Position numbers and translations under genes: made by a program. Source: Morinoia aosen (Eukaryota; Arthropoda; Malacostraca; Amphipoda; Talitridae). Taken from it: a stretch of DNA of 64,000 nt. The notes under the pieces were generated by a model, which was given only the letters and a program-made list of their open reading frames with translations, was not told where the DNA came from and did no database searches. The DNA lies in NCBI GenBank assembly GCA_030386875.1, contig CM059558.1, positions 8,813,501-8,877,500 on the forward strand, in the 5' to 3' direction. Below, one piece after another: positions 14,280 to 51,560 of the stretch (positions are counted from its first letter, which is position 1; every line of letters starts with the position of its first letter).

Positions 14280-15222
14280 CCTACCCATTATTTTCATACC
14301 TCTACACATTGTTTCCATACCCCTACCAATTGTTTTCCTACCACCACACAATGTTTCCATACTCCTACCCATTGTTTTCGTACCTCCACACATTGTTTTC
14401 ATACTCTTACCCATTGTTTTCCTACCACCACACATTGTTTCCATACTCCTACCCATTGTTTTCCTACCACCACACATTGTTTTCATACTCTTACCCATTG
14501 TTTTCCTACCACCACACATTGTTTCCATACTCCTACCCATTGTTTTCCTACCACCACACATTGTTTCCATACTCTTACCCATTGTTTTCCTACCACCACA
14601 CATTGTTTCCATACTCCTACCCATTGTTTTCCTACCACCACACATTGTTTCCATACTCCTACCCATTGTTTTCCTACCACCACACATTGTTTCCATACTC
14701 TTACCCATTGTTTTCCTACCACCACACATTGTTTCCATACTCTTACCCATTGTTTTCCTACCACCACACACTGTTTCCATACTCCTACCCATTGTTTTCC
14801 TACCACCACACATTGTTTTCATACTCTTACCCATTGTTTTCCTACCACCACACATTGTTTCCATACTCCTACCCATTGTTTTCCTACCACCACACATTGT
14901 TTCCATACTCCTACCCATTGTTTTCGTACCTCCACACATTGTTTCCATACTCCTACCCATTGTTTTCGTACCTCCACACATTGTTTCCATACTCTTACCC
15001 ATTGTTTTCGTCCCTCCACACATTGTTTCCATACTCCTACCCATTGTTTTCGTACCTCCACACATTGTTTCCATACTCCTACCCATTGTTTTCGTACCTC
15101 CACACATTGTTTCCATACTCCTACCCATTGTTTTCGTACCTCCACACATTGTTTCCATACTCCTACCCATTGTTTTCGTCCCTCCACACATGGTTTCCTT
15201 ACCCCTACCCATTGTTTTCATT
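14280..15222. repeat. Minisatellite, 42-bp unit made of two 21-mers
   Basis: About 940 bp of alternating 21-mers, CCTACCACCACACATTGTTTT and CATACTCCTACCCATTGTTTC, together 42 bp. The first 21-mer has a second form with CGTACCTCCACAC, confined mainly to 14920-15180, so two sub-blocks expanded separately. Both 21-mers share an ACCCATTGTTT/ACACATTGTTT core. The array is open on both strands (Met-Glu-Thr/Thr-Met-Gly on minus, His-Cys-Phe on plus) because 21 and 42 are multiples of three; I take these frames as non-coding. Confidence 0.95.
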
Positions 15223-18522: not shown

Positions 18523-19870
18523 GTGAGTTGCCTCGTCATGTTGGTTGAATGAGTGCAGTGAAGACGATGTGCTGCTCAACTCTTAGGGAATTGTGGATCT
18601 GTTCGAATAGTGGTCATCTGTTTTGTGGTGTTTACTCATAGATGGAATTCCGGATATTCCTATCTTGCTAGTCACGCAATAGGAAGTGTGGTACAGAAGG
18701 GAGCTGAAAATGATAATGGGCTTTGAGATCTTAGTGCCGCACGACTTTACTTAAGTGACTTAATCTTTCCCCAGCGACAGAGGAAATGCCTTTTTGTGTC
18801 ATGCCATGCCTGACGTTACAAACGTTAAGCATGAATTGATAGGCAATCGCCATCAAGGCAATAGTAAATTGAACGGCCTAATTAAGAATTGGTTTTGAAA
18901 TATACCTTCATCTGATTCTCGTAAAGTGCATCTACGTATATATTTAAAAAATGTAGTTGCGCAGCACTTGTGGATCTCAAATTAAACTTTTATATGAGCT
19001 AAATAAAGTTCAAATAAAGGCACGTTTCAATGAATCCTGTTCATTCTGAAGCTGGAAGAACATTGAAATTAAATTTAATTAAATTCAAGTATAATGCAGA
19101 CCTTCATTCAAACCTCCTATGTTAAATAATTAAGGTTCATTCTATGAAATTTTCCAAATATTCGAAGTTTTTGTTTCATAAAAACTGGTGGCCTGAGACG
19201 CTCACAGAGAAACTGGAAGCGGACCTTTTATGCAGATAAAAATCTCCTTTGGGAAGACCAATTGAACTTCTGACAGCCCAAACAAACATTTTTTGCTCCC
19301 CAGCGCATAAACAAGCTAACCGTATAGATAACAGTGGGCGTATCGTGCGGTTGTTTAAAAAACACGAAACACTAACTTGCGGGCAGCCGTGTGCTCAATT
19401 TATTTACGACGCTTTAGGATGGTTTGATGCGTTTAAAATAATTTAAAAGCCATTACAGTTTTTCGAAAAGCCAAGTTTTTCGTTTTTCGAAAGGCTATTG
19501 TTTGTTCGTACGTTGCTTGCATCTTTACATGGGTCGCCCCACGTTGGCAGTACTTGGTAAGAAAATACTAATTATCTCGACCATAGGCTGTACTATAATG
19601 TTGACACTTTAAAAACTTACCTCTTAGTGATCAATTAAGTAGTTTTTCTTGTATTCACAAGAGCGTTGACGGTAAAAAAAGCTTGAAGCCTTGTTTTCGC
19701 CACATTTTAACTAGCAGCACGGTTGCTGGGGGGAAAATATTTCTCCCTAGCACTGCAAGCATCTTATAACTCTCGTGCCCAAAAGTACCGAGAACAAATG
19801 TCTAAAAATATAAACGTTTCCCGCATCGAGTCTGCTAGTCTCGCAGTTATTGATAGGAAGGGAATCTTAA

Positions 19871-21255: not shown

Positions 21256-23100
21256 GTGTACTCCAGGTGTGTACTCCAGGTGTGTACTCCAGGTGTGTAC
21301 TCCAGGTGTGTACTCCAGGTGTGTAACCCAGGTGTGTACTCCAGGTGTGTACTCCAGGTGTGTACTCCAGGTGTGTACTCCAGGTGTGTACTCCAGGTGT
21401 GTACTCCAGGTGTGTACTCCAGGTGTGTACTCCAGGTGTGTACTCCAGGTGTGTACTCCAGGTGTGTACTCCAGGTGTGTACTCCAGGTGTGTACTCCAG
21501 GCGTGTACTCAAGGTGTGTACTCCAGGAGTACACTCCAGGAGTGTACTCCAAGAGTGTACTTCAGGTGTGTACTCCAGGTGTACACTCCAGGTGTGTACT
21601 CCAGGTGTGTACTCCAGGTGTGTACTCCAGGTGTGTACTCCAGGTGTGTACTCCAGGTGTACACTCCAGGTGTGTACTCCAGGAGTGTACTCCAGGTGTA
21701 CACTCCAGATGTGTACTCCAGGTGTGTACTCCAGGAGTGTACTCCAGGTGTACACTCCAGGTGTGTACTCCCGGAGTGTACTCCAGGTGTACACTCCAGG
21801 TGTGTACTCCAGGTGTGTACTCCAGGAGTGTACTCCAGGAGTGTACTCCAGGTGTGTACTCCAGGTGTGTACGCCAGGTGTGTACTCCAGGCGTGTACTC
21901 CAGGCGTGTACTCCAGGAGTGTACTCCAGGTGTGTACTCCAGGAGTGTACTCCAGGTGTGTACTCCAGGAGTGTACTCCAGGTGTGTACTCCAGGTGTAC
22001 ACTCCAGGTGTGTACTCCAGGCGTGTACTCCAGGTGTGTACTCCAGGAGTGTACTCCAGGTGTACACTCCAGGTGTACACTCCAGGTGTGTACTCCAGGT
22101 GTGTACTCCAGGAGTGAACTCCAGGTGTACACTCCAGGTGTGTACTCCAGGAGTGTACTCCAGGTGTACACTCCAGGTGTGTACTCCAGGTGTGTACTCC
22201 AGGAGTGTACTCCAGGTGTACACTCCAGGTGTGTACTCCAGGGGTGTACTCCAGGTGTGTACTCCAGGTGTGTACTCCAGGAGTGTACTCCAGGTGTGTA
22301 CTCCAGGTGTACACTCCAGGTGTGTACTCCAGGTGTGAACTCCAGGTGTGTACTCCAGGAGTGTACTCCAGGAGTGTACTCCAGATGTGTACTCCAGGTG
22401 TGTACTCCAGGAGTGTACTCCAGGTGTACACTCCAGGTGTGTACTCCAGGAGTGTACTCCAGGTGTACACTCCAGGTGTGTACACCAGGTGTGTACTCCA
22501 GGAGTGTACTCCAGGTGTACACTCCAGGTGTGTACTCCAGGAGTGTAATCCAGGTTTGTACTCCAGGAGTGTACTCCAGGTGTGTACTCCAGGAGTGTAC
22601 TCCAGGTGTGTACTCCAGGAGTGTACTCCAGGAGTGTACTCCAAGAGTGTACTCCAGGTGTGTACTCCAGGAGTGTACTCCAGGTGTGTACTCCAGGTGT
22701 ACACTCCAGGTGTGTACTCCAGGTGTGTACTCCAGGTGTGTACTCCAGGAGTGTACTCCAGGTGTGTACTCCAGGTGTGTACTCCAGGTGTGTACTCCAG
22801 GTGTACACTCCAGGTGTGTACTCCAGGTGTACACTCCAGGTGTGTACTCCAGGAGTGTACTCCAGGAGTGTACTCCAGGTGTGTACTCCAGGAGTGTACC
22901 CCAGGAGTGTACTCCAGGAGTGTACTCCAGGTGTACACTCCAGGTGTGTACTCCAGGAGTGTACTCCAGGAGTGTACTCCAAGAGTGTACTCCAGGTGTG
23001 TACTCCAGGAGTGTACTCCAGGTGTGTACTCCAGGTGTACACTCCAGGAGTGTACTCCAGGTGTGTACTCCAGGTGTACACTCCAGGTGTGTACTCAAAT
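21256..23100. repeat. Minisatellite, 13-bp unit GTGTACTCCAGGT, about 142 copies
   Basis: The first register point is 21256 and the last 23089, a distance of 1833 = 141 x 13, so the array has no net indel. Variant units (GAGTGTACTCCAG; GTACACTCCAG with an inverted TGTACAC step) are dispersed from about 21530 to the end, while the left 250 bp is nearly pure. Every unit has CCAG|GTGTG, which resembles a weak 5' splice site on the same strand as the LRR gene. Open frames (Val-Cys-Thr-Pro-Gly or His-Leu-Glu-Tyr-Thr types) are repeat artefacts: 13 is not a multiple of three, so all frames stay open only because the unit lacks stops. Confidence 0.97.
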
Positions 23101-23667: not shown

Positions 23668-24178
23668 GTCTTAACTAGTCATTAACGCACCTGCAGGGAG
23701 ACTAGTTAGTCCTAACTAGTCATTTCCGCACCTGTGGGGAGACTAGTTAGTCTTAACTAGTCATTACCGCCCCTGGGGGGAGACTAGTTAGTTCTAACTA
23801 ATCCTTACCTCACCTGTGGGGAGACTATTTAGTCTTAACTAGTCATTACCGCACCTGTGGGGAGACTAGTTAGTCTTAACTAGTCATTTCCGCACCTGTG
23901 GGGAGACTAGTTAGTCATAACTAGTCATTACCTCACCTGTGAGGAGACTAGTTAGTCTTAACTAGTCATTACCGCACCTGTGGGGAGACTAGTTAGTCTT
24001 AACTAGTCATTTCCGCACCTGTGGGGAGACTAGTTAGTCATAACTAGTCATTACCTCACCTGTGGGGAGACTAGTTAGTCTTAACTAGTCATTACCTCAC
24101 CTGTGGGGAGACTAGTTAGTCTTAACTAGTCATTACCTCACCTGTGGGGAGACTGGTTAGTCATAACTAGTCATTGTA
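23668..24178. repeat. Minisatellite, 41-bp unit with a built-in hairpin, 12 copies
   Basis: The unit GAGACTAGTTAGTCTTAACT + AGTCATTACCGCACCTGTGGG starts at 23698, 23739 and so on to 24149 (11 x 41). Each unit contains ACTAGTTAgtctTAACTAGT, eight perfectly paired bases with a four-base loop. Variation is mostly single bases outside the stem. Confidence 0.93.
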
Positions 24179-24350
24179 ACACAAACACAACACGACCCTC
24201 ACGGCAGCGAGGTAATTTTGAAGCTAAAGCTAGATATTTCTCCAGAATTACCGTCGCTGTTCACGAAAAATGGAACAAATGAGGTGACGCTGCTACTTTT
24301 TCTGAACGTGATGTATATTTATTGAATTGGACTTGTGTTAATGAGGCGCA

Positions 24351-24868
24351 GGGCACACAGCTGCAGCTGTATACAGCTGGTGACACAGGGCACACAGCTG
24401 CAGCTGTATACAGCTGGTGACGCAGGGCACACAGCTGCAGCTGTATACAGCTGGTGACGCAGGGCACACAGCTGCAGCTGTATACAGCTGGTGACACAGG
24501 GCACACAGCTGCAGCTGTATACAGCTGGTGACACAGGGCACACAGCTGCAGCTGTATACAGCTGGTGACACAGGGCACACAGCTGCAGCTGTATACAGCT
24601 GGTGACGCAGGGCACACAGCTGCAGCTGTATACAGCTGGTGACACAGGGCACACAGCTGCAGCTGTATACAGCTGGTGACGCAGGGCACACAGCTGCAGC
24701 TGTATACAGCTGGTGACGCAGGGCACACAGCTGCAGCTGTATACAGCTGGTGACACAGGGCACACAGCTGCAGCTGTATACAGCTGGTGACGCAGGGCAC
24801 ACAGCTGCAGCTGTATACAGCTGGTGGCGCAGGGCACACAGCTGCAGCTGTATACAGCTGGTGGCACA
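24351..24868. repeat. Minisatellite, 37-bp unit, 14 copies, next to the LRR exon
   Basis: The unit is GGGCACACAGCTGCAGCTGT + ATACAGCTGGTGACACA; copies begin at 24351, 24388 and so on to 24832 (13 x 37, no net indel). Each copy has several CAGCTG palindromes. The array stops about 60 bp before the exon at 24931 and so fills the region where the branch point and pyrimidine tract are expected. Confidence 0.95.
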
Positions 24869-24930
24869 CAGCACATCACCACACAGCACCACCACACACC
24901 ACACAGCACCACTACACAGCCGTGTTGCAG

Positions 24931-28609: not shown

Positions 28610-30400
28610 ATGGCAAACGACGGTGAGATTCCTTACATCCTTCCTAGAAACGAATGGAGACCAAGGCCAGTCAGTATTGTAGAGAGACGGATAATTTCAT
28701 GCCCTCTAAAAAATACTGAAGCAGTTAGACATTATGAAATTAACTTATTGCAGATGCCTTCAATGTATATAAGCCAGCTTCTGCGTTACAGCACCCCTGC
28801 TCTATTTAATAACAAATACATCTATAGCCACAAACAAATTTCCTGATCAAAGGACACTGTCCATTATTGAACCATTACACAAATCTGGTGACATGTATGC
28901 AGCATCAAGTTACAGACCAATCAGTCTCCTGCATCTTATGTCGAAATTATAAGAAATTAGAACAAAGCAGCTTCCGTCTCACGTGGATCAATCACCCCTA
29001 CTTCGTTGCAATCAGTGTGCTTACAGAAGGAACACCAGTACTCGAGATGCTTTACTCAACATCACAGGAAAATATGCAGTAATATAAATCAGAAAAGTAC
29101 CTATCCCTACTACTTGATCTTATTAAAGTGCTCGCAAGTGTTGAGTATAAAACACTCCTACAGAAAATATCGAACCTCAAAATTGACATACTGTAGTTTG
29201 CGCGATACAGAACCGCTCTCACGCAGTGTGCTTTACACTTTGACTGCGGCAGATAAAACTGAAGTTCAATATTCAACTTAAATATAAAGCCAATTGTAAT
29301 AAGCAATGTTGAAAATAGCAAGCATGAGCTGGATCGTGCCTTCATTTAGCTTTCATTAAGTATTTATTTAAATTGAGTTTGCGACTACTGGTCAGTCACC
29401 ATACAGCATTTTGAAAATCTTATACGTGTACCACCGGTGGACCACGTTGCTGTCAAAGTGTTGAAAAACAAAATGTTATTTTTCATATCAAATAACTTGG
29501 GCTTTCCCCTAGGTGCAATCCTTGGCCCGCTCCTATTTTCTATTTTCATTATTGATTTCCACACTATGCCAGCAAACACAAAAACCTCAATGTAAGCTGG
29601 TGCCCAAATTGCCAAGACAAGTTCGACAGCTGATTTAAAAGACTCACAAGTCGACGCTGGAAGAACCTGAAATCGTGGTCTGACCGAAATGGCCTAAAAC
29701 TCGACGCAAGTAAAATGCAATCTTATATTTTGGATCAAAAGATGCGATCGGAAAATCGCCTAAACTTTCGCTGACATTTGAAGACAAAATAATTGAGCCA
29801 ATCGACGCTTTAAAAAACTTTGGGGCTAGGTTTGACTTAGACATTACTTTCAAACCACACGTGGGAACATTATGCAGCAAAATTATCGGAACCCTTATAT
29901 TTTTTCACGGTATTAAGGACATACATGACGAAAATGCTTGGTTGTTCATGATTCAGTCCTTAGTATTTTCGCGTTTGGACTGCTACAGTCTAGTTTGTGG
30001 AGACACCGCAATATCTCCAAAAAGAGCTGAAAAAGTATAAAATTTTCAGCCAAAGTGGTGTGTAGAGGTAATTTCAAGGAACACGATCATACAATCCTCT
30101 ATTACAAAAACCCGGGTGGACTCCAACTTCCGGCAAATTTCACATTCAGAAAGCCGACACCCGTTCTTGTCTCTCTACCTCCCTCATAGTAATGCCAATA
30201 TCGCGTGTTGAAGTCGTTAGATTACCGGTAGCCATCACTTAGACCTGTTCATTCTTTGTCCAATTTGCCAGCTTCATTCAGTGGTCAATATGTAATTGTG
30301 ATCACTTGTCTCAAGGATGAGGTTCCAAAGATATAAATGTTTCTAAGTCAATTTTGTATGATGTCAAACACTAAGCAATTGAATCCTGCTGCTTTATGAA
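28610..30400 (+). mobile_element. Degraded non-LTR retrotransposon (LINE), reverse transcriptase region
   Basis: Conceptual translation in shifting frames gives landmarks of a LINE reverse transcriptase in the right order. NTEAVRHYEINLLQ is at about 28718-28757. IIEPLHKSGD...YRPISLL is at 28863-28930 and LLDLIKVLASVEYKTLL near 29115-29160. LGFPLGAILGPLLFSIFI is at about 29488-29545, followed by the remains of the catalytic YADD box. NGLKLD is near 29690, and the post-catalytic LITFKPHVGTLCSKIIGTL-like tail runs at 29835-29900. Numerous stops and frame changes show it is long dead. It resembles the Jockey/CR1-type insect LINEs; the clade is not settled. A 225-bp MITE (29236-29460) sits inside it, replacing nothing visible. 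No endonuclease region was seen, so it is 5'-truncated. Confidence 0.85.
29236..29460. mobile_element. MITE copy A, 225 bp, CACTTTGACTGCGGCA ends, inside the LINE
   Basis: The left end CACTTTGACTGCGGCA and the reverse complement of the right end (CACTTTGACAGCAA) are inverted. Flanks are TTTA and TTGA, decayed forms of the TTAA found around copy B (54259-54479). Copies A and B align along their whole length with about three quarters identity, including ACTGGATCGTGCC / GCTGGATCGTGCC and TCATTTAGCTTT. TTAA specificity suggests mobilisation by a piggyBac-type transposase. Confidence 0.85.
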
Positions 30401-33980: not shown

Positions 33981-34016
33981 CTCCAGCGGAAAGGAAAGAA
34001 AAGAAAAGAAAAGAAA
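33905..34016. repeat. Short microsatellites: (CA)n and (AAAAG)n
   Basis: ACACACATACACACACACAC lies near 33910-33936, and a run of AAAGG/AAAAG pentamers at 33990-34015, just left of the satellite region. Confidence 0.85.
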
Positions 34017-34019
34017 AAC

Positions 34020-34334
34020 ATTCTATTTCCAATAAAGTATAAACATGAAATGTTGATACATTGATTTTTTAAACACCTTAACATTAACATCCTTAACTGA
34101 TAATAACACATTGGTATCGTAGTACCCGTGGAAAATGTTGAAACAAAAAATGATTGACAGAAAAGCACAACAAAATTAAGTTCCTTCCTAGCATAATCTG
34201 ATTTTGACAGTGGATTTAAATATAAGAAACTAAGAGAACACAATCCTCGCGACGCTCATTTGAAAAACACTCTCGTTAGTGCGCACATGTATTGAAATAA
34301 AAGCGAAAAACGCATTCAAATACCTTAGCATAGA
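34020..34334 (+). repeat. Diverged ancestral satellite module, left border
   Basis: 34088-34155 is a diverged 67-bp monomer (CATCCTTAACTGATAATAAC then TATCGTAGTACCCGTGGAAA and GTTGAAACAAA). It is followed by about 170 bp (34156-34334) that matches the sequence to the right of the array (48350-48505), for example GAAAAGCAC, TCTCGTTAGTGCG against TCTCGTTCGTGCG, and ATTGAAA. The bases before 34088 (TAAACACCTTAACATTAACA) also resemble the end of that spacer (CAAATACCTTAGCATAGAGA). So a larger unit, spacer plus one monomer, once existed in tandem. Confidence 0.8.
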
Positions 34335-37300
34335 GACCCTTAATTGCTATTCATACATGGCTATCGCAATACCCATGTTAAGTGTTGAAACAAATGATTT
34401 AGACCCTTAATTGCTATTCATACATGGCTATCGTAATACCCATGTTAAGTGTTGAAACAAATGATTTAGATCCTTAATTGCTATTCATTCATGGTTATCG
34501 TAATACCCATGTTAAGTGTTGTAACAAATGATTTAGATCCTTAATTGCTATTCATACATGGCTATCGTAATACCCATGTTAAGTGTTGAAACAAATGATT
34601 TAGATCCTTAATTGCTATTCATTCATGGTCATCGTAATACCCATGTTAAGTGTTGTAACAAATGATTTAGATCCTTAATTGCTATTCATTCATGCTTATC
34701 GTAATACCCATGTTAAGTGTTGTAACAAATGATTTAGATCCTTAATTGCTATTCATTCATGCTTATCGTAATACCCATGTTAAGTGTTGTAACAAATGAT
34801 TTAGATCCTTAATTGCTATTCATTCATGGTTATCGTAATACCCATGTTAAGTGTTGTAACAAATGATTTAGATCCTTAATTGCTATTCATTCATGCTTAT
34901 CGTAATACCCATGTTAAGTGTTGTAACAAATGATTTAGATCCTTAATTGCTATTCATTCATGCTTATCGTAATACCCATGTTAAGTGTTGTAACAAATGA
35001 TTTAGATCCTTAATTGCTATTCTTTCATGGTTATCGTAATACCCATGTTAAGTGTTGTAACAAATGATTTAGATCCTTAATTGCTATTCATTCATGCTTA
35101 TCGTAATACCCATGTTAAGTGTTGTAACAAATGATTTAGATCCTTAATTGCTATTCATTCATGGTTATCGTAATACCCATGTTAAGTGTTGAAATAAATG
35201 ATTTAGATCCTTAATTGCTATTCATTCATGCTTATCGTAATACCCATGTTAAGTGTTGTAACAAATGATTTAGATCCTTAATTGCTATTCATTCATGGTT
35301 ATCGTAATACCCATGTTAAGTGTTGTAACAAATGATTTAGATCCTTAATTGCTATTCATACATGGCTATCGTAATACCCATGTTAAGTGTTGAAACAAAT
35401 GATTTAGATCCTTAATTGCTATTCATTCATGGTTATCGTAATACCCATGTTAAGTGTTGTAACAAATGATTTAGATCCTTAATTGCTATTCATTCATGCT
35501 TATCGTAATACCCATGTTAAGTGTTGTAACAAATGATTTAGATCCTTAATTGCTATTCATTCATGCTTATCGTAATACCCATGTTAAGTGTTGAAACAAA
35601 TGATTTAGATCCTTAATTGCTATTCATTCATGGTTATCGTAATACCCATGTTAAGTGTTGTAACAAATGATTTAGATCCTTAATTGCTATTCATTCATGG
35701 TTATCGTAATACCCATGTTAAGTGTTGTAACAAATGATTTAGATCCTTAATTGATATTCATTCATGCTTATCGTAATACCCATGTTAAGTGTTGTAACAA
35801 ATGATTTAGATCCTTAATTGCTATTCATTCATGGTTATCGTAATACCCATGTTAAGTGTTGTAACAAATGATTTAGATCCTTAATTGCTATTCATTCATG
35901 CTTATCGTAATACCCATGTTAAGTGTTGTAACAAATGATTTAGATCCTTAATTGCTATTCATTCATGGTTATCGTAATACCCATGTTAAGTGTTGAAACA
36001 AATGATTTAGATCCTTAATTGCTATTCATTCATGCTTATCGTAATACCCATGTTAAGTGTTGTAACAAATGATTTAGATCCTTAATTGCTATTCATTCAT
36101 GGTTATCGTAATACCCATGTTAAGTGTTGTAACAAGTGATTTAGATCCTTAATTGCTATTCATTCATGCTTATCGTAATACCCATGTTAAGTGTTGTAAC
36201 AAATGATTTAGATCCTTAATTGCTATTCATTCATGGTTATCGTAATACCCATGTTAAGTGTTGTAACAAATGATTTAGATCCTTAATTGCTATTCATTCA
36301 TGCTTATCGTAATACCCATGTTAAGTGTTGAAACAAATGATTTAGACCCTTAATTGCTATTCATACATGGCTATCGTAATACCCATGTTAAGTGTTGAAA
36401 CAAATGATTTAGACCCTTAATTGCTATTCATACATGGCTATCGTAATACCCATATTAAGTGTTGAAACAAATGATTTAGATCCTTAATTGCTATTCATTC
36501 ATGGTTATCGTAATACCCATGTTAAGTGTTGTAACAAATGATTTAGATCCTTAATTGCTATTCATACATGGCTATCGTAATACCCATGTTAAGTGTTGAA
36601 ACAAATGATTTAGATCCTTAATTGCTATTCATTCATGGTTATCGTAATACCCATGTTAAGTGTTGTAACAAATGATTTAGATCCTTAATTGCTATTCATT
36701 CATGCTTATCGTAATACCCATGTTAAGTGTTGTAACAAATGATTTAGATCCTTAATTGCTATTCATTCATGCTTATCGTAATACCCATGTTAAGTGTTGA
36801 AACAAATGATTTAGATCCTTAATTGCTATTCATTCATGGTTATCGTAATACCCATGTTAAGTGTTGTAACAAATGATTTAGATCCTTAATTGCTATTCAT
36901 TCATGGTTATCGTAATACCCATGTTAAGTGTTGTAACAAATGATTTAGATCCTTAATTGCTATTCATTCATGCTTATCGTAATACCCATGTTAAGTGTTG
37001 TAACAAATGATTTAGATCCTTAATTGCTATTCATTCATGGTTATCGTAATACCCATGTTAAGTGTTGTAACAAATGATTTAGATCCTTAATTGCTATTCA
37101 TTCATGCTTATCGTAATACCCATGTTAAGTGTTGTAACAAATGATTTAGATCCTTAATTGCTATTCATTCATGGTTATCGTAATACCCATGTTAAGTGTT
37201 GAAACAAATGATTTAGATCCTTAATTGCTAGTCATTCATGCTTATCGTAATACCCATGTTAAGTGTTGTAACAGATGATTTAGATCCTTAATTGCTATTC

Positions 37301-40300
37301 ATTCATGGTTATCGTAATACCCATGTTAAGTGTTGTAACAAATGATTTAGATCCTTAATTGCTATTCATTCATGCTTATCGTAATACCCATGTTAAGTGT
37401 TGTAACAAATGATTTAGATCCTTAATTGCTATTCATTCATGCTTATCGTAATACCCATGTTAAGTGTTGAAACAAATGATTAAGATCCTTAATTGCTATT
37501 CATTCATGGTTATCGTAATACCCATGTTAAGTATTGTAACAAATGATTTAGATCCTTAATTGCTATTCATTCATGCTTATCGTAATACCCATGTTAAGTG
37601 TTGTAACAAATGATTTAGATCCTTAATTGCTATTCATTCATGCTTATCGTAATACCCATGTTAAGTGTTGTAACAAATGATTTAGATCCTTAATTGCTAT
37701 TCATCCATGCTTATCGTAATACCCATGTTAAGTGTTGAAACAAATGATTAAGATCCTTAATTGCTATTCATTCATGGTTATCGTAATACCCATGTTAAGT
37801 GTTGTAACAAATGATTTAGATCCTTAATTGCTATTCATTCATGCTTATCGTAATACCCATGTTAAGTGTTGTAACAAATGATTTAGATCCTTAATTGCTA
37901 TTCATTCATGCTTATCGTAATCCCCATGTTAAGTGTTGTAACAAATGATTTAGATCCTTAATTGCTATTCATTCATGCTTATCGTAATACCCATGTTAAG
38001 TGTTGTAACAAATGATTTAGATCCTTAATTGCTATTCATTCATGGTTATCGTAATACCCATGTTAAGTGTTGAAACAAATGATTTAGATCCTTAATTGCT
38101 ATTCATTCATGCTTATCGTAATACCCATGTTAAGTGTTGTAACAAATGATTTAGATCCTTAATTGCTATTCATTCATGGTTATCGTAATACCCATGTTAA
38201 GTGTTGTAACAAATGATTTAGATCCTTAATTGCTATTCATTCATGCTTATCGTAATACCCATGTTAAGTGTTGTAACAAATGATTTAGATCCTTAATTGC
38301 TATTCTTTCATGCTTATCGTAATACCCATGTTAAGTGTTGAAACAAATGATTAAGATCCTTAATTGCTATTCATTCATGGTTATCGTAATACCCATGTTA
38401 AGTGTTGTAACAAATGATTTAGATCCTTAATTGCTATTCATTCATGCTTATCGTAATACCCATGTTAAGTGATGTAACAAATGATTTAGATCCTTAATTG
38501 CTATTCATTCATGCTTATCGTAATACCCATGTTAAGTGTTGTAACAAATGATTTAGATCCTTAATTGCTATTCATCCATGCTTATCGTAATACCCATGTT
38601 AAGTGTTGAAACAAATGATTAAGATCCTTAATTGCTATTCATTCATGGTTATCGTAATACCCATGTTAAGTGTTGTAACAAATGATTTAGATCCTTAATT
38701 GCTATTCATTCATGCTTATCGTAATACCCATGTTAAGTGTTGTAACAAATGATTTAGATCCTTAATTGCTATTCATTCATGCTTATCGTAATACCCATGT
38801 TAAGTGTTGTAACAAATGATTTAGATCCTTAATTGCTATTCATTCATGCTTATCGTAATACCCATGTTAAGTGTTGAAACAAATGATTAAGATCCTTAAT
38901 TGCTATTCATTCATGGTTATTGTAATACCCATGTTAAGTGTTGTAACAAATGATTTAGATCCTTAATTGCTATTCATTCATGCTTATCGTAATACCCATG
39001 TTAAGTGTTGTAACAAATGATTTAGATCCTTAATTGCTATTCATTCATGGTTATCGTAATACCCATGTTAAGTGTTGTAAGTTAACAAATGATTTAGATC
39101 CTTAATTGCTATTCATTCATGCTTATCGTAATACCCATGTTAAGTGTTGTAACAAATGATTTAGATCCTTAATTGCTATTCATTCATGCTTATCGTAATA
39201 CCCATGTTAAGTGTTGTAACAAATGATTTAGATCCTTAATTGCTATTCATTCATGCTTATCGTAATACCCATGTTAAGTGTTGAAACAAATGATTAAGAT
39301 CCTTAATTGCTATTCATTCATGGTTATTGTAATACCCATGTTAAGTGTTGTAACAAATGATTTAGATCCTTAATTGCTATTCATTCATGGTTATCGTAAT
39401 ACCCATGTTAAGTGTTGAAACAAATGATTTAGATCCTTAATTGCTATTCATTCATGCTTATCGTAATACCCATGTTAAGTGTTGTAACAAATGATTTAGA
39501 TCCTTAATTGCTATTCATTCATGGTTATCGTAATACCCATGTTAAGTGTTGTAACAAATGATTTAGATCCTTAATTGCTATTCATTCATGCTTATCGTAA
39601 TACCCATGTTAAGTGTTGTAACAAATGATTTAGATCCTTAATTGCTATTCATTCATGCTTATCGTAATACCCATGTTAAGTGTTGAAACAAATGATTAAG
39701 ATCCTTAATTGCTATTCATTCATGGTTATCGTAATACCCATGTTAAGTGTTGTAACAAATGATTTAGATCCTTAATTGCTATTCATTCATGCTTATCGTA
39801 ATACCCATGTTAAGTGTTGTAACAAATGATTTAGATCCTTAATTGCTATTCATTCATGCTTATCGTAATACCCATGTTAAGTGTTGTAACAAATGATTTA
39901 GATTCTTAATTGCTATTCATCCATGCTTATCGTAATACCCATGTTAAGTGTTGAAACAAATGATTAAGATCCTTAATTGCTATTCATTCATGGTTATCGT
40001 AATACCCATGTTAAGTGTTGTAACAAATGATTTAGATCCTTAATTGCTATTCATTCATGCTTATCGTAATACCCATGTTAAGTGTTGTAACAAATGATTT
40101 AGATCCTTAATTGCTATTCATTCATGCTTATCGTAATACCCATGTTAAGTGTTGTAACAAATGATTTAGATCCTTAATTGCTATTCATTCATGCTTATCG
40201 TAATACCCATGTTAAGTGTTGAAACAAATGATTAAGATCCTTAATTGCTATTCATTCATGGTTATTGTAATACCCATGTTAAGTGTTGTAACAAATGATT

Positions 40301-43300
40301 TAGATCCTTAATTGCTATTCATTCATGCTTATCGTAATACCCATGTTAAGTGTTGTAACAAATGATTTAGATCCTTAATTGCTATTCATTCATGCTTATC
40401 GTAATACCCATGTTAAGTGTTGTAACAAATGATTTAGATCCTTAATTGCTATTCATTCATGCTTATCGTAATACCCATGTTAAGTGTTGAAACAAATGAT
40501 TAAGATCCTTAATTGCTATTCATTCATGGTTATCGTAATACCCATGTTAAGTGTTGTAACAAATGATTTAGATCCTTAATTGCTATTCATTCATGCTTAT
40601 CGTAATACCCATGTTAAGTGTTGTAACAAATGATTTAGATCCTTAATTGCTATTCATTCATGCTTATCGTAATACCCATGTTAAGTGTTGTAACAAATGA
40701 TTTAGATCCTTAATTGCTATTCATCCATGCTTATCGTAATACCCATGTTAAGTGTTGTAACAAATGATTTAGATCCTTAATTGCTATTCATTCATGCTTA
40801 TCGTAATACCCATGTTAAGTGTTGTAACAAATGATTTAGATCCTTAATTGCTATTCATTCATGCTTATCGTAATACCCATGTTAAGTGTTGTAACAAATG
40901 ATTTAGATCCTTAATTGCTATTCATCCATGCTTATCGTAATACCCATGTTAAGTGTTGAAACAAATGATTAAGATCCTTAATTGCTATTCATTCATGGTT
41001 ATCGTAATACCCATGTTAAGTGTTGTAACAAATGATTTAGATCCTTAATTGCTATTCATTCATGCTTATCGTAATACCCATGTTAAGTGTTGTAACAAAT
41101 GATTTAGATCCTTAATTGCTATTCATTCATGCTTATCGTAATACCCATGTTAAGTGTTGTAACAAATGATTTAGATCCTTAATTGCTATTCATTCATGCT
41201 TATCGTAATACCCATGTTAAGTGTTGAAACAAATGATTAAGATCCTTAATTGCTATTCATTCATGGTTATTGTAATACCCATGTTAAGTGTTGTAACAAA
41301 TGATTTAGATCCTTAATTGCTATTCATTCATGCTTATCGTAATACCCATGTTAAGTGTTGTAACAAATGATTTAGATCCTTAATTGCTATTCATTCATGC
41401 TTATCGTAATACCCATGTTAAGTGTTGTAACAAATCATTTAGATCCTTAATTGCTATTCATTCATGCTTATCGTAATACCCATGTTAAGTGTTGAAACAA
41501 ATGATTAAGATCCTTAATTGCTATTCATTCATGGTTATCGTAATACCCATGTTAAGTGTTGTAACAAATGATTTAGATCCTTAATTGCTATTCATTCATG
41601 CTTATCGTAATACCCATGTTAAGTGTTGTAACAAATGATTTAGATCCTTAATTGCTATTCATTCATGCTTATCGTAATACCCATGTTAAGTGTTGTAACA
41701 AATGATTTAGATCCTTAATTGCTATTCATCCATGCTTATCGTAATACCCATGTTAAGTGTTGAAACAAATGATTAAGATCCTTAATTGCTATTCATTCAT
41801 GGTTATCGTAATACCCATGTTAAGTGTTGTAACAAATGATTTAGATCCTTAATTGCTATTCATTCATGCTTATCGTAATACCCATGTTAAGTGTTGTAAC
41901 AAATGATTTAGATCCTTAATTGCTATTCATTCATGCTTATCGTAATACCCATGTTAAGTGTTGTAACAAATGATTTAGATCCTTAATTGCTATTCATTCA
42001 TGCTTATCGTAATACCCATGTTAAGTGTTGAAACAAATGATTAAGATCCTTAATTGCTATTCATTCATGGTTATTGTAATACCCATGTTAAGTGTTGTAA
42101 CAAATGATTTAGATCCTTAATTGCTATTCATTCATGCTTATCGTAATACCCATGTTAAGTGTTGTAACAAATGATTTAGATCCTTAATTGCTATTCATTC
42201 ATGGTTATCGTAATACCCATGTTAAGTGTTGTAAGTTAACAAATGATTTAGATCCTTAATTGCTATTCATTCATGCTTATCGTAATACCCATGTTAAGTG
42301 TTGTAACAAATGATTTAGATCCTTAATTGCTATTCATTCATGCTTATCGTAATACCCATGTTGAGTGTTGTAACAAATGATTTAGATCCTTAATTGCTAT
42401 TCATTCATGCTTATCGTAATACCCATGTTAAGTGTTGAAACAAATGATTAAGATCCTTAATTGCTATTCATTCATGGTTATTGTAATACCCATGTTAAGT
42501 GTTGTAACAAATGATTTAGATCCTTAATTGCTATTCATTCATGGTTATCGTAATACCCATGTTAAGTGTTGAAACAAATGATTTAGATCCTTAATTGCTA
42601 TTCATTCATGCTTATCGTAATACCCATGTTAAGTGTTGTAACAAATGATTTAGATCCTTAATTGCTATTCATTCATGGTTATCGTAATACCCATGTTAAG
42701 TGTTGTAACAAATGATTTAGATCCTTAATTGCTATTCATTCATGCTTATCGTAATACCCATGTTAAGTGTTGTAACAAATGATTTAGATCCTTAATTGCT
42801 ATTCATTCATGCTTATCGTAATACCCATGTTAAGTGTTGAAACAAATGATTAAGATCCTTAATTGCTATTCATTCATGGTTATCGTAATACCCATGTTAA
42901 GTGTTGTAACAAATGATTTAGATCCTTAATTGCTATTCATTCATGCTTATCGTAATACCCATGTTAAGTGTTGTAACAAATGATTTAGATCCTTAATTGC
43001 TATTCATTCAAGCTTATCGTAATACCCATGTTAAGTGTTGTAACAAATGATTTAGATCCTTAATTGCTATTCATCCATGCTTATCGTAATACCCATGTTA
43101 AGTGTTGAAACAAATGATTAAGATCCTTAATTGCTATTCATTCATGGTTATCGTAATACCCATGTTAAGTGTTGTAACAAATGATTTAGATCCTTAATTG
43201 CTATTCATTCATGCTTATCGTAATACCCATGTTAAGTGTTGTAACAAATGATTTAGATCCTTAATTGCTATTCATTCATGCTTATCGTAATACCCATGTT

Positions 43301-46300
43301 AAGTGTTGTAACAAATGATTTAGATCCTTAATTGCTATTCATTCATGCTTATCGTAATACCCATGTTAAGTGTTGAAACAAATGATTAAGATCCTTAATT
43401 GCTATTCATTCATGGTTATTGTAATACCCATGTTAAGTGTTGTAACAAATGATTTAGATCCTTAATTGCTATTCATTCATGCTTATCGTAATACCCATGT
43501 TAAGTGTTGTAACAAATGATTTAGATCCTTAATTGCTATTCATTCATGGTTATCGTAATACCCATGTTAAGTGTTGTAAGTTAACAAATGATTTAGATCC
43601 TTAATTGCTATTCATTCATGCTTATCGTAATACCCATGTTAAGTGTTGTAACAAATGATTTAGATCCTTAATTGCTATTCATTCATGCTTATCGTAATAC
43701 CCATGTTAAGTGTTGTAACAAATGATTTAGATCCTTAATTGCTATTCATTCATGCTTATCGTAATACCCATGTTAAGTGTTGAAACAAATGATTAAGATC
43801 CTTAATTGCTATTCATTCATGGTTATTGTAATACCCATGTTAAGTGTTGTAACAAATGATTTAGATCCTTAATTGCTATTCATTCATGCTTATCGTAATA
43901 CCCATGTTAAGTGTTGTAACAAATGATTTAGATCCTTAATTGCTATTCATTCATGGTTATCGTAATACCCATGTTAAGTGTTGTCTTGTAACAAATGATT
44001 TAGATCCTTAATTGCTATTCATTCATGCTTATCGTAATACCCATGTTAAGTGTTGTAACAAATGATTTAGATCCTTAATTGCTATTCATTCATGGTTATC
44101 GTAATACCCATGTTAAGTGTTGAAACAAATGATTTAGATCCTTAATTGCTATTCATTCATGCTTATCGTAATACCCATGTTAAGTGTTGTAACAAATGAT
44201 TTAGATCCTTAATTGCTATTCATTCATGGTTATCGTAATACCCATGTTAAGTGTTGTAACAAATGATTTAGATCCTTAATTGCTATTCATTCATGCTTAT
44301 CGTAATACCCATGTTAAGTGTTGTAACAAATGATTTAGATCCTTAATTGCTATTCATTCATGCTTATCGTAATACCCATGTTAAGTGTTGAAACAAATGA
44401 TTAAGATCCTTAATTGCTATTCATTCATGGTTATCGTAATACCCATGTTAAGTGTTGTAACAAATGATTTAGATCCTTAATTGCTATTCATTCATGCTTA
44501 TCGTAATACCCATGTTAAGTGTTGTAACAAATGATTTAGATCCTTAATTGCTATTCATTCATGCTTATCGTAATACCCATGTTAAGTGTTGTAACAAATG
44601 ATTTAGATCCTTAATTGCTATTCATCCATGCTCATCGTAATACCCATGTTAAGTGTTGAAACAAATGATTAAGATCCTTAATTGCTATTCATTCATGGTT
44701 ATCGTAATACCCATGTTAAGTGTTGTAACAAATGATTTAGATCCTTAATTGCTATTCATTCATGCTTATCGTAATACCCATGTTAAGTGTTGTAACAAAT
44801 GATTTAGATCCTTAATTGCTATTCATTCATGCTTATCGTAATACCCATGTTAAGTGTTGTAACAAATGATTTAGATCCTTAATTGCTATTCATCCATGCT
44901 TATCGTAATACCCATGTTAAGTGTTGAAACAAATGATTAAGATCCTTAATTGCTATTCATTCATGGTTATCGTAATACCCATGTTAAGTGTTGTAACAAA
45001 TGATTTAGATCCTTAATTGCTATTCATTCATGCTTATCGTAATACCCATGTTAAGTGTTGTAACAAATGATTTAGATCCTTAATTGCTATTCATTCATGC
45101 TTATCGTAATACCCATGTTAAGTGTTGAAACAAATGATTAAGATCCTTAATTGCTATTCATCCATGCTTATCGTAATACCCATGTTAAGTGTTGTAACAA
45201 ATGATTTAGATCCTTAATTGCTATTCATTCATGCTTATCGTAATACCCATGTTAAGTGTTGTAACAAATGATTTAGATCCTTAATTGCTATTCATTCATG
45301 GTTATCGTAATACCCATGTTAAGTGTTGTAACAAATGATTTAGATCCTTAATTGCTATTCATTCATGCTTATCGTAATACCCATGTTAAGTGTTGTAACA
45401 AATGATTTAGATCCTTAATTGCTATTCATTCATGGTTATCGTAATACCCATGTTAAGTGTTGAAACAAATGATTTAGATCCTTAATTGCTATTCATTCAT
45501 GCTTATCGTAATACCCATGTTAAGTGTTGTAACAAATGATTTAGATCCTTAATTGCTATTCATTCATGGTTATCGTAATTTTCATGTTAAGTGTTGAAAC
45601 AAATGATTTAGATCCTTAATTGCTATTCATTCATGCTTATCGTAATACCCATGTTAAGTGTTGTAACAAATGATTTAGATCCTTAATTGCTATTCATTCA
45701 TGGTTATCGTAATACCCATGTTAAGTGTTGTAACAAATGATTTAGATCCTTAATTGCTATTCATTCATGCTTATCGTAATACCCATGTTAAGTGTTGTAA
45801 CAAATGATTTAGATCCTTAATTGCTATTCATTCATGCTTATCGTAATACCCATGTTAAGTGTTGTAACAAATGATTTAGATCCTTAATTGCTATTCATTC
45901 ATGCTTATCGTAATACCCATGTTAAGTGTTGTAACAAATGATTTAGATCCTTAATTGCTATTCATCCATGCTTATCGTAATACCCATGTTAAGTGTTGAA
46001 ACAAATGATTAAGATCCTTAATTGCTAATCATTCATGGTTATCGTAATACCCATGTTAAGTGTTGTAACAAATGATTTAGATCCTTAATTGCTATTCATT
46101 CATGCTTATCGTAATACCCATGTTAAGTGTTGTAACAAATGATTTAGATCCTTAATTGCTATTCATTCATGCTTATCGTAATACCCATGTTAAGTGTTGT
46201 AACAAATGATTTAGATCCTTAATTGCTATTCATTCATGTTTATCGTAATACCCATGTTAAGTGTTGTAACAAATGATTTAGATCCTTAATTGCTATTCAT

Positions 46301-48357
46301 TCATGCTTATCGTAATACCCATGTTAAGTGTTGTAACAAATGATTTAGATCCTTAATTGCTATTCATTCATGCTTATCGTAATACCCATGTTAAGTGTTG
46401 AAACAAATGATTTAGATCCTTAATTGCTATTCATTCATGCTTATCGTAATACCCATGTTAAGTGTTGTAACAAATGATTTAGATCCTTAATTGCTATTCA
46501 TTCATGCTTATCGTAATACCCATGTTAAGTGTTGTAACAAATGATTTAGATCCTTAATTGCTATTCATTCATGGTTATCGTAATACCCATGTTAAGTGTT
46601 GTAACAAATGATTTAGATCCTTAATTGCTATTCATTCATGCTTATCGTAATACCCATGTTAAGTGTTGTAACAAATGATTTAGATCCTTAATTGCTATTC
46701 ATTCATGGTTATCGTAATACCCATGTTAAGTGTTGAAACAAATGATTTAGATCCTTAATTGCTATTCATTCATGCTTATCGTAATACCCATGTTAAGTGT
46801 TGTAACAAATGATTTAGATCCTTAATTGCTATTCATTCATGGTTATCGTAATACCCATGTTAAGTGTTGTAACAAATGATTTAGATCCTTAATTGCTATT
46901 CATTCATGCTTATCGTAATACCCATGTTAAGTGTTGTAACAAATGATTTAGATCCTTAATTGCTATTCATTCATGGTTATCGTAATACCCATGTTAAGTG
47001 TTGTAACAAATGATTTAGATCCTTAATTGCTATTCATTCATGCTTATCGTAATACCCATGTTAAGTGTTGTAACAAATGATTTAGATCCTTAATTGCTAT
47101 TCATTCATGCTTATCGTAATACCCATGTTAAGTGTTGAAACAAATGATTAAGATCCTTAATTGCTATTCATTCATGCTTATCGTAATACCCATGTTAAGT
47201 GTTGTAACAAATGATTTAGATCCTTAATTGCTATTCATTCATGCTTATCGTAATACCCATGTTAAGTGTTGTAACAAATGATTTAGATCCTTAATTGCTA
47301 TTCATTCATGCTTATCGTAATACCCATGTTAAGTGTTGTAACAAATGATTTAGATCCTTAATTGCTATTCATCCATGCTTATCGTAATACCCATGTTAAG
47401 TGTTGAAACAAATGATTAAGATCCTTAATTGCCATTCATTCATGGTTATCGTAATACCCATGTTAAGTGTTGAAACAAATGATTAAGATCCTTAATTGCC
47501 ATTCATTCATGGTTATCGTAATACCCATGTTAAGTGTTGTAACAAATGATTAAGATCCTTAATTGCCATTCATTCATGGTTATCGTAATACCCATGTTAA
47601 GTGTTGTAACAAATGATTAAGATCCTTAATTGCTATTCATTCATGGTTATCGTAATACCCATGTTAAGTGTTGTAACAAATGATTAAGATCCTTAATTGC
47701 TATTCATCCATGCTTATCGTAATACCCATGTTAAGTGTTGTAACAAATGATTAAGATCCTTAATTGCTATTCATTCATGGTTATCGTAATACCCATGTTA
47801 AGTGTTGTAACAAATGATTAAGATCCTTAATTGCTATTCATCCATGCTTATCGTAATACCCATGTTAAGTGTTGAAACAAATGATTAAGATCCTTAATTG
47901 CTATTCATTCATGGTTATCGTAATACCCATGTTAAGTGTTGTAACAAATGATTTAGATCCTTAATTGCTATTCATTCATGGTTATTGTAATACCCATGTT
48001 AAGTGTTGTAACAAATGATTTAGATCCCTAATTGCTATTCATTCATGGTTATTGTAATACCCATGTTAAGTGTTGTAACAAATGATTTAGATCCTTAATT
48101 GCTATTCATCCATGCTTATCGTAATACCCATGTTAAGTGTTGTAACAAATGATTTAGATCCTTAATTGCTATTCATTCATGGTTATTGTAATACCCATGT
48201 TAAGTGTTGTAACAAATGATTTAGATCCCTAATTGCTATTCATTCATGGTTATCGTAATACCCATGTTAAGTGTTGTAACAAATGATTTAGATCCTTAAT
48301 TGCTATTCATTCATGGTTATTGTAATACCCATGTCAAGTGTCGAAACAGGATTTGGA
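34335..48357 (+). repeat. Satellite array, 67-bp monomer, 209 copies
   Basis: The consensus monomer begins GATCCTTAATTGCTATTCAT and continues TCATGCTTATCGTAATACCC, ATGTTAAGTGTTGTAACAAA, TGATTTA (67 bp). The first register point is 34335 and the last 48291: 13,956 bp = 208 x 67 + 20. The extra 20 are four 5-bp insertions: a GTTAA at 39081, 42235 and 43580, and a CTTGT near 43985. Monomers differ mainly at a few positions (GCTTATCG/GGTTATCG/GGCTATCG; TTCATTC/TTCATAC/TTCATCC; GTAAC/GAAAC; GATTTAG/GATTAAG). It is AT-rich, with no open frames worth noting. Confidence 0.99.
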
Positions 48358-48520
48358 GAAAAGCACGAAAAAAATGCGTTCCTCTTCGTTCCGTTAGTCA
48401 TATTTTGGTAATGCATTTAAATACATGTTACTAAGAAAACATAATTCATGTGACGCATTGCTGAAAACCCTCTCGTTCGTGCGTACCCATTATTGAAAAT
48501 ATGAGCATAAGAACGTAGGA
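48358..48520 (+). repeat. Right spacer copy bordering the satellite
   Basis: GGAGAAAAGCACGAAAAAAA...TCTCGTTCGTGCGTACCCAT...ATTGAAAATATGAGC aligns with 34156-34305 left of the array. It is the second clear copy of the spacer that accompanies the diverged monomer there. Confidence 0.75.
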
Positions 48521-49582
48521 GCTAGTGATACGAGCGTGAGGGATTGATGTTAGAAGTAAAATGAGCAGATTTTATTTATTTTGCGTCTAGAACTATGAGG
48601 TCGACAGTCGGAATTTGGGACAATTTTTCACACGGACGCATCATACAGTGTGCCAAGTGGTGGGCTCGGAAAGAATTTAATATTAAGTGTAACAAAACAG
48701 AAAAATGTTATGATATTTCTTACTTACGCTAATAGTACTGGCGCAAAGAGTTCATCGGAGTCAAAGACATGAAAAGGATTGTTGCACAATGCTAGCCGTG
48801 ACATTTTCAACATAGGTGAAACCGTACAAAAAGTTAACTATCCAAAATAGTGTTGTCATAATGCATTCACGAGAGTAAGAGGGTAAGAAGAGTTTACCAC
48901 ACAAAGCTGACAACAGCAATTTGAGACCAGAACAAGAAGATTAAAAAATGATGTTCTTTAAAGTTATGACATTCGTCGAATCCGTGGCCCATTTAAAATG
49001 TTTTATTAAGAACGAAAAAATAGAAAAAAAGCTAAAATATCCTCACATTAACATCCACGCGGAGGGCGCGCTCCCTTCAGGCCGCAGCGCAGGGAGGGCA
49101 GTTGTGGCTAAATTCTCGTTTTCCCATCGGGAAGAAACACAGGGATCGCTCTGTAGAGTTTCCAATGCTGCACACAAAATGCGTTAGCACTTTTAACCGC
49201 AGGACAGCGCTTCCTGGAACGTTTTATATGTTTACAAATGCAGGACTGAACAACGGATCTGCATCCTTCGTTTTCTTTAAGGAAGGAATTGTGGCTGTAC
49301 CGTCGACGTGGCCAGTTCTTGCCTCCGTGCCCGCTGACTAACTTCACTCCGTGTGATCAGAGAGGACGTTTTCATGGCACGCTAATACCTCCTCGTCATA
49401 ATCTGTACGCGCCACTCAGCAGCACTGAACAAAGTATTTCCAAGCCTATTACGGAAATTCCGCTGCGCCGTTGGACAAGTGAACTCAGGACGCTGCTACC
49501 ACAACACTCCCATCACTTCCAGCAGGGATGAAAATATCGAGTTAATGTAATGAGGTTTTTGATTTTCTTCCTATTAACCATC

Positions 49583-49655
49583 GTTTCCGTAGTGTAGTGG
49601 TTATCACGTGCGCCTCACACGCGCAAGGTCCCCGGTTCGATCCCGGGCGGAAACA
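49583..49655 (+). tRNA. tRNA-Val (CAC)
   Basis: 73 nt: GTTTCCGTAGTGTAGTGG...CCGGGCGGAAACA. The acceptor GTTTCCG/CGGAAAC pairs fully. The anticodon arm TGCGCCTCACACGCGCA gives anticodon CAC. T-loop GGTTCGATCCC and A box are intact, and a TTTT terminator lies at 49660-49663. It is identical to the copies at 50979, 55405 and 55806. Confidence 0.97.
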
Positions 49656-50015
49656 TTTGTTTTACACGTCTATTGTCGTTTAAATACATATAAAAGAAGT
49701 AATGAGGCTGCCAATTCTCTTTTCTTCTAATTTTAAGGAAAAAACTTGGAGCACTCCGCCATCTACTCACCAGGTGTGTTGTGCAATACTCACGCCGCAC
49801 CCAACACTGACCCGTTCACTTCAGTGAGTTCAAGTGCTTCTTTAACGTCATCTCTTCAATAGTAATGAAAATCTAATTTTTTCAGTGCCCAATGTCTTTT
49901 CTTTCTCCTTTCAACCGAAGAACTTAAGGAGCGTCAAAATTAAGGTCTGTATGTCTGATCGAACCTTTTATTACTATGTGTGAATATTATATTTGTCCAT
50001 GGGCCTATTTAGAGC

Positions 50016-50088
50016 GTTTCCGTAGTGTAGTGGTTATCACGTCCGCTTTACACGCGGAAGGTCCCCGGTTCGAACCCGGGCGGAAACA
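50016..50088 (+). tRNA. tRNA-Val (TAC)
   Basis: 73 nt with the same acceptor and T-arm design as the CAC genes. The anticodon arm TCCGCTTTACACGCGGA gives anticodon TAC, and the T-loop is GGTTCGAACCC. A strong TTTTTT terminator starts four bases downstream. It lies 360 bp from the tRNA-Val(CAC) on the same strand. Confidence 0.97.
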
Positions 50089-50545
50089 AGATTTTTTGTC
50101 AGCATGCCGCATTTTACGCGATTGGACACGCCGTGGGACACCCTCAACTGCCATCCACATGTCCCCTTCAGCGGCTCGTTATTCGGGTCCAATAACAAAC
50201 TGAACTACTCTCGCATTCACATTCCGTCAGCTGGAACTCTGTAGTTGTAAAAGGGAAATTCTACACAAAACTGAATATATCAGCTCCATGAAGTGTACTC
50301 GAAATATACCAAACTTCAAACGAGATATAATAAACTGAAGAAAACTGCAATTGAAAGCTTACCTTTGTAGATGTAACAGTTTTGTAAACGCATCAACTAA
50401 AATCTCGGCGAGTGGAGTAGTTCATTTCTGGCAATATCAGGAGGGATATTTCCATGCCTCGAACATCGAGAGGGAGGACAGGATACCTCGGCGGGAGTTT
50501 GCGTGTTCAGTTACGTCCAAATGCACCAAACCGGCGAAAAAACTC

Positions 50546-50618
50546 TTTTTCCGCCCGGGTTCGAACCGGGGATCTTCCGCGTGCGAAGCGGACGTGATAA
50601 CCATTACACTACGGAAGC
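50546..50618 (-). pseudogene. tRNA-Val-like pseudogene with CGC (Ala) anticodon
   Basis: The mirror copy of the TAC gene at 50016. It reads GCTTCCGTAGTGTAATGG...GGGCGGAAAAA. The anticodon loop is TTCGCAC, anticodon CGC, formally alanine, while the rest is plainly tRNA-Val. The first two acceptor pairs are lost (G1-A72 and C2-A71), a G in the D-arm has become A, and the variable region reads AAGATCC instead of AAGGTCC. No alanine identity element (G3:U70) is present. A T-run downstream remains. Most likely a decaying duplicate, not a working tRNA-Ala. Confidence 0.85.
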
Positions 50619-50978
50619 GCCCTAATAGTGCTCATGGACAAATATAATATTCACACATAGTAATAAAAGGTTTGATCAGACATACAGAGCTTAATTTTGA
50701 TGCTCCTTAAGTTCTTCGGTTGAAAGGAGAAAGAAAAGACATTGGGCACTGAAAAAATTAGATTTTCATTACTATTGAAGAGATGACGTTAAAGAAGCAC
50801 TTGAACTCACTGAAATGAACGGGTCAGTGTTGGGTGCGGCGTGAGTATTGCACTAAACACCTGGTGAGTAGATGGCGGAGTGCTCCAATTTTTTTCCCTA
50901 AAATTAGAAGAAAAGAGAATTGGCAGGCGCATTACTTCTTATATATGTATATAAACGACAATAAACGTGTAAAAGGTA

Positions 50979-51051
50979 TGTTTCCGCCCGGGATCGAACC
51001 GGGGACCTTGCGCGTGTGAGGCGCACGTGATAACCACTACACTACGGAAAC
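50979..51051 (-). tRNA. tRNA-Val (CAC)
   Basis: Identical in sequence to the plus-strand gene at 49583 and placed symmetrically in the right arm. Acceptor, anticodon arm (CAC), A and B boxes are intact; TTTT follows on the minus strand (50971-50974 on plus). Confidence 0.97.
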
Positions 51052-51560
51052 GACAGTTAATGAAAGAAAACCAAAAACTTCATTACATCAACCAGAGATT
51101 TTCATCCCTGCCGGAAGTGTTGGGAGTGTTGTGGTAGCAGCGTCCTGAGTTTACTCGTCCAACAACGCAGCGGAATTTCCGAGATAGGCTTGGAAATACT
51201 TTGTCCAGTGCTGCTGAGTGGCGCGTACAGATTATGACGAGGAGGTATTAGCGTGCCATGAAAACGTCCTCTCTGATCACACGGAGTGAAGTTAGTCAGC
51301 GGGCACGGAGGCAAGAACTGGCCACGTCGACGGTACAGCCACAATTCCTTCCTCACAGAAAACGAAGGATGCAGATCCGTTGTTCACTCGTGGGTTTGTA
51401 AACATATAAACGTTCTAGGAAGCGCTGTCGTGCGGTTAAAAGTGCCTACGCATTTTGTGAGCAGCAATGGAAACTCTTCAGTTAGAGCCCTGTGTTTCTT
51501 CACGATGGTAAAACGAGAAGTTAGCCACATCTGCCCTCCCCGCGCAAATGGTGAGAGAGT

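Follow-up and report, generated by a model that had tools for sequence, protein, structure and literature searches.

The 64,000-nucleotide stretch of the Morinoia aosen genome analyzed here (the window; contig CM059558.1, positions 8,813,501–8,877,500) carries a long satellite array of 67-bp monomers. Very probably, this array grew in situ in the 3′ untranslated region (UTR) of an old, 5′-truncated non-long-terminal-repeat (non-LTR) retrotransposon. This element, a long interspersed nuclear element (LINE), lies on the minus strand at approximately 33990–49056, as do all of its parts described below. The original prediction, made from the letters of the window, held that the satellite had grown from one module of a larger ancestral tandem unit of about 240 bp, possibly an internal repeat of a transposon. 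Growth from such a module is supported, with the refinement that the amplification is not unique, as the module has also expanded at several other loci.

The array spans 34334–48348 (about 14 kb), where Tandem Repeats Finder counts 208.9 copies at a period of 67 bp. Cut in register, it yields 209 units (204 of 67 bp, four of 72 bp, and a partial final unit), which represent 39 types and differ pairwise by 3.0% on average. A single diverged monomer (approximately 34083–34147) lies 247 bp to the left of the first monomer of the array and is followed by spacer 1 (about 34148–34333), and spacer 2 (about 48349–48520) adjoins the right end. The two spacers are homologous: their local alignment scores 82, compared with a best score of 35 in 500 shuffles. 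They represent the remainders of two units, as seen from this alignment, the comparison of copies, and a unit profile; unit 1 begins with the diverged monomer, and the monomer run of unit 2 became the array, which was delimited by repeat finding, unit splitting, and monomer comparison. A trace of spacer also precedes the diverged monomer: positions 34068–34147 match 34315–34394 with 75% identity over 80 bp, the match opening about 15 bp before the monomer, and the same pairing is seen between the window and other copies at 72–78%. The order first read from the window, i.e., spacer trace, monomer, spacer, 209 monomers, and spacer, is therefore right, as are the likeness of the two spacers and the reality of the trace. 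The trace does not, however, adjoin a cut-off array on its left; its neighbor there is the 3′-terminal sequence of a dispersed LINE, which together with the trace occupies 34020–34082.

Besides the window, the 315 bp to the left of the array match 39 places with 91–94% identity (40 scored of 4466 loose first-look candidates), along with weaker internal matches. Twenty of these places, loci L009–L028, were compared in detail. In all 20, the match begins at window positions 33989–34012, at an A-rich, mostly AAAG-like tail that in the window occupies 33989–34019 ((CTTTT)n-like on the minus strand, AAAAG repeats on the plus strand). Beyond the tail, the flanks are unlike between loci, apart from apparent pairs of duplicated segments (L010/L016, L013/L018, L011/L014, and L026/L027); L048/L051 form a further such pair by the look of their layouts only. 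Rightward, the 20 copies extend over different lengths, i.e., their 5′ ends vary. The combination that distinguishes a LINE, namely a constant 3′ end, an A-rich repeat tail, and variable 5′ truncation, is thus present. Six loci (L010, L012, L016, L017, L025, and L028) cease to match the window copy at 49056, and in the two of these that were inspected (L016 and L017), the LINE sequence continues past this point. The window copy is therefore truncated, and the segment at 48521–49056 is further 3′ UTR that ends sharply at the truncation.

Relatives of the window copy contain reverse transcriptase (RT). L009 has broken RT frames on the minus strand, approximately 1.4 to 3.3 kb from its left end, and RT frames with 55–88% identity to the open reading frame (ORF) of a sister LINE family occur in 13 loci (L009, L010, L015, L016, L020, L021, L023, L042, L049, L054, L056, L057, and L058), in every case on the other strand from the one in which the monomer run is written. 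The RT pieces in L026, L027, L047, L048, and L051 are weaker or belong to other elements (28–72%) and were not counted. Loci whose flanks differ, such as L009 and L016, align through both the repeat region and the RT. Because the RT frames of the relatives lie on the minus strand, the left end of the element is its 3′ end and the array is situated in its 3′ UTR. The sister family has a 988-residue ORF with the Pfam domain RVT_1 and a weak Exo_endo_phos match (1.4e-5, 25.4 bits vs. a cutoff of 24.5), an assignment that holds for the sister family only, the array’s own family being decayed.

The layout of the copies was surveyed with a 67-bp profile (matches above 8 bits) at 37 LINE-selected loci (L009–L028 and L042–L058), which are the 20 and 17 top-scoring places from searches with the LINE unit, duplicated pairs included, and do not form a random sample. 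The common layout consists of an A-rich (AAAG)n-like tail, the 3′ end, the diverged monomer, approximately 180 bp of spacer 1, a run of N monomers, and spacer 2. N is 1 at four loci, 2 at 14, 3 at 15, and 4 at one, followed by 8, 9, and 18 at one locus each; hence, 34 of the 37 copies have a short run of one to four monomers, and few have a long array. Loci selected for their arrays have N values of 19, 28, 46, and at least 18 (L062). The unamplified unit that the original prediction proposed to look for in the genome thus exists, repeating with a shift of 247 bp and mostly bearing few monomers. The diverged left monomer is likewise single at 34 of the 37 loci; L012 has another single monomer shortly before it, L058 has two weak matches within 90 bp, and in L043 and L046, this profile and threshold revealed none. 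A faint further monomer (10–23 bits, a range for which there is no shuffle control) is found at 15 of the 37 loci, mostly about 1.1 kb farther on, with extremes of 0.6 and 2.6 kb.

A profile of the whole unit of about 250 bp detected units 1 and 2 in all eight loci of the array’s family to which it was applied. Farther 5′, it detected a spacer-only remnant in six of them (absent from L009 and L021) and a nearly full extra unit in five (L016, L017, L019, L021, and L025). Since these remnants and units lie 5′ of units 1 and 2, the unit has been duplicated several times. Self-comparison of L017 revealed a duplication of approximately 1.06 kb (376–693 vs. 1439–1754, 73%), and its decayed units extend to about 1.4–1.7 kb from the 3′ end, with this duplication of about 1 kb among them. 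The larger ancestral tandem unit is accordingly real in that several copies of it exist; yet, it forms no satellite of its own, only a few decayed copies in the tail of a LINE. The suggested internal repeat of a transposon is borne out, the unit being present at least twice in the LINE 3′ UTR. The original prediction had counted it against itself if the spacer proved to be a common unrelated repeat. The spacer is indeed common, but it is so because it belongs to the same LINE, which favors the predicted origin.

In the young sister LINE, L040 and L041 contain one unit only at E < 0.5, with 36.8 and 30.5 bits against the profile of about 250 bp; the best match in 60 dinucleotide shuffles of L040 reached 5.5 bits. 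This unit occupies the homologous place, approximately 62 bp from a 3′ end that reads like that of the array’s family. The single unit is probably the simpler and older state, which would have been duplicated in the array-carrying family, although loss of further units in the sister family could conceivably have produced the same picture. The RT stretch of the sister LINE is 98–100% identical at 96 scored places (including G000:C12:42677228-42678535; of 45,682 loose candidates), many of them with the 988-residue open frame, and to judge from these sequences, the family looks recently active. By eye, the 3′ UTR of L040 seems to hold a pair of similar stretches of its own, as if repeat growth were habitual there. 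Within the window, degenerate RT fragments of another LINE, with 28–55% identity to the sister ORF, are located on the plus strand at 29449–30239 (found via L039).

As for the time of growth, the flanks of the window array share a mean identity of 91.1% with other copies (39 loci on the left and 21 on the right; only matches spanning at least 80% of a flank), whereas the monomers within the array differ by only 2.6–3.0%. This difference suggests that the array is younger than its LINE insertion. Along the array, the fraction of same-type units at lags of 4, 20, and 47 units is in each case higher than in any of 1000 order shuffles, and when all 60 lags are corrected for (best shuffled value 0.314), lags 20 (0.319) and 47 (0.335) stand out. 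The longest repeated block comprises 12 units, compared with 10 in the best of 200 shuffles. Multi-monomer duplication in the window array is demonstrated in part by these patterns. We infer unequal crossing-over as the route of growth; similar traces could result from slippage or from growth through circles.

A search with three monomers revealed long arrays elsewhere, including, among the matches listed (39 scored of 713 candidates), arrays on C24, C25, C20, C4, C16, and C18; pieces of four of these arrays (those on C24, C20, C16, and C25) were taken up. Eight arrays (the window, L021, L047, L052, L059, L060, L061, and L062) were then compared, with monomers below 45 bits left out. Their monomers differ by 1.3–3.7% within and 4.5–12.8% between arrays, and those of short copies differ by 9.7% among themselves. 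In a tree of 132 monomers, five of the eight arrays form clean clades, and label changes number 16, whereas none of 300 shuffles gave fewer than 71. Of the seven arrays outside the window, five have a period of 67 bp; in L021 (14 of 16 spacings) and in L062, it is 68 bp. LINE sequence flanks the window, L021, L047, L052, and L059 arrays on both sides; it is present on the 3′ side only for L060 and L061 and on the 5′ side for L062, whose other end falls outside the stretch examined. The long arrays at the other loci therefore look like separate in situ expansions, as far as their sequences tell.

Several long arrays, and block duplications that fit rolling-circle growth as well, might also have come from a single amplification, which spread with the LINE by retrotransposition or as re-inserted extrachromosomal circles. 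It would agree with this that three of the eight arrays, those of the window, L021, and L047, are not clean clades in the monomer tree, although more than one founder monomer may have contributed to these three. A common source is at odds with the consensus sequences, which differ between arrays in keeping with the divergence given above: no two of the eight arrays share a set of consensus variants, and L047 has none relative to the short-copy consensus. Moreover, the periods differ, and each of the eight arrays retains LINE sequence on at least one side. From the private variants and the periods, we judge a single amplification spread by transposition to be very unlikely.

A satellite of independent origin, with a LINE inserted into it or next to it and a secondary likeness of monomer and LINE, is scarcely credible. 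The same monomer is arrayed at many places, as such a satellite would be, but LINE copies with no more than one to four monomers have their run in the same position, bordered by the same two spacers, and in the sister LINE, the monomer forms part of that element’s single unit. Later insertion of a LINE was rejected, as the unamplified copies show the same junctions. Helitron and Helentron elements of the DINE and pearl types also bear a microsatellite. A non-autonomous carrier of this kind, with a central tandem repeat and a microsatellite, in place of a LINE is extremely improbable and was set aside: internal tandem repeats and the seeding of satellites are known from such elements (available parts of PMC7492417 and PMC9659126), but here several loci have RT frames in the same element and on the same strand, the 3′ tail is constant, and the 5′ ends are ragged.

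Several points weigh against in situ growth in a LINE. The window copy holds no RT, so its identity as a LINE rests on its relatives. The longest open RT piece, from L024 (RVT_1, E 1.4e-38), is 98.9% identical to L040; it belongs to the young sister family and probably inserted separately. No convincing target-site duplication was found in the three copies tested: the best words shared at the insertion ends are 6 nucleotides in the window (reached by 217 of 300 shuffles), 5 in L013 (293 of 300), and 8, partly tail-like, in L011 (15 of 300). Differences between copies can predate insertion, so that the argument from age is not strict, and the length of the array is that given by the assembly. 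The recurrence at lag 4 (0.309) lies below the best of 60 lags in the 1000 shuffles (0.314). That the nearest neighbor of a monomer belongs to the same array in 207 of 210 cases (window thinned to 70, ties taken as same array) speaks for separate arrays, but this count has no shuffle control. Finally, the stretches examined showed no spacer 2 following the arrays of L060 and L061.

Growth in situ from the LINE unit would have proceeded as follows. The 3′ UTR of the LINE ends in a unit of about 250 bp, composed of a 67-bp monomer and approximately 180 bp of spacer, and because the copies share one layout, this unit would have been duplicated in this family before the copies dispersed. In the second unit, the run most often comprises two or three monomers that resemble one another, a suitable substrate for unequal crossing-over or slippage. 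In the window, a run of few monomers would have expanded to 209, most probably once the LINE had inserted and in part through duplication of multi-monomer blocks, the enzymatic route being one that we infer. Homologous runs at other insertions would have grown separately and gained private substitutions. There is no need of a host function to explain the array. The majority sequence of seven of the eight arrays starts with AGATCC, as the second monomer typically does in 14 two-monomer copies, and not with AGACCC like the first; the L047 array has both starts. It is possible, if rather doubtful, that the LINE tail is a recurrent satellite seed, whose ready runs of two or three monomers sow locus-specific satellites, usually from the second (AGATCC) monomer, more often than chance would have it for such runs.

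The window contains further repeats. A near-palindrome at 49087–51545, with arms at 49087–50097 and 50537–51545 that are 88–94% complementary, starts 30 bp to the right of the LINE truncation and may be a foldback element. Other tandem arrays are located at 3581–8223, 14280–15219, 21256–23096, 23668–24175, and 24349–24875, with units of 23, 16, 42, 13, 41, and 37 bp. A Pfam scan of the ORF at 16483–18549 gave nothing at E 0.01. In the genome, (TTAGG)n is abundant, with 6,646 and 8,599 overlapping seven-unit matches and none for the reversed control, an abundance that points to an arthropod.

The beginnings of a satellite can seldom be traced, as the context in which it was founded is usually lost. 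In M. aosen, the series is unusually clear within one genome, from the single unit of the sister LINE through the duplicated unit and the short run to several separate long arrays, so that several expansions can be compared side by side and the rate and founder of satellite birth become countable. In our literature searches, we recognized no publication treating this LINE, and we make no claim that the case is unpublished. Satellites derived from internal repeats of retrotransposons are already known, and the present array is a clean new example and not a new kind. The known systems are compared here as described in the available parts of the cited papers. LTR retrotransposons of Lathyrus sativus contain short tandem arrays that occasionally expand to satellites (PMC7004042), and the PisTR-A satellite derives from the 3′ UTR of Ogre (PMC9659126). 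As in M. aosen, a short tandem array in a non-coding part of a retrotransposon expands at some loci; however, the carriers there are LTR elements, whereas the carrier here is a LINE with the unamplified single unit traced in a sister family. The DINEs of Drosophila and the Helentrons of oyster have central tandem repeats (PMC9659126, PMC7492417), which likewise give rise to longer arrays from within a dispersed element, but these carriers are DNA transposons and not a reverse-transcribed LINE. In Drosophila, the 18HT satellite arose from the 3′ non-coding region of HeT-A (PMC9659126), so that 3′ sequence of a non-LTR retrotransposon likewise became a satellite, although one of the Y centromere region and not several separate arrays at dispersed insertions. 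The HinfI (SCR1) satellite resembles CR1 in chicken, and the common cetacean satellite resembles the 3′ end of L1 (PMC9659126). Their monomers are homologous to the 3′ part of a LINE, in HinfI also to part of the coding region, whereas in M. aosen, a small internal repeat supplies the monomer, and the LINE sequence in which its founder lay can still be seen around the array.

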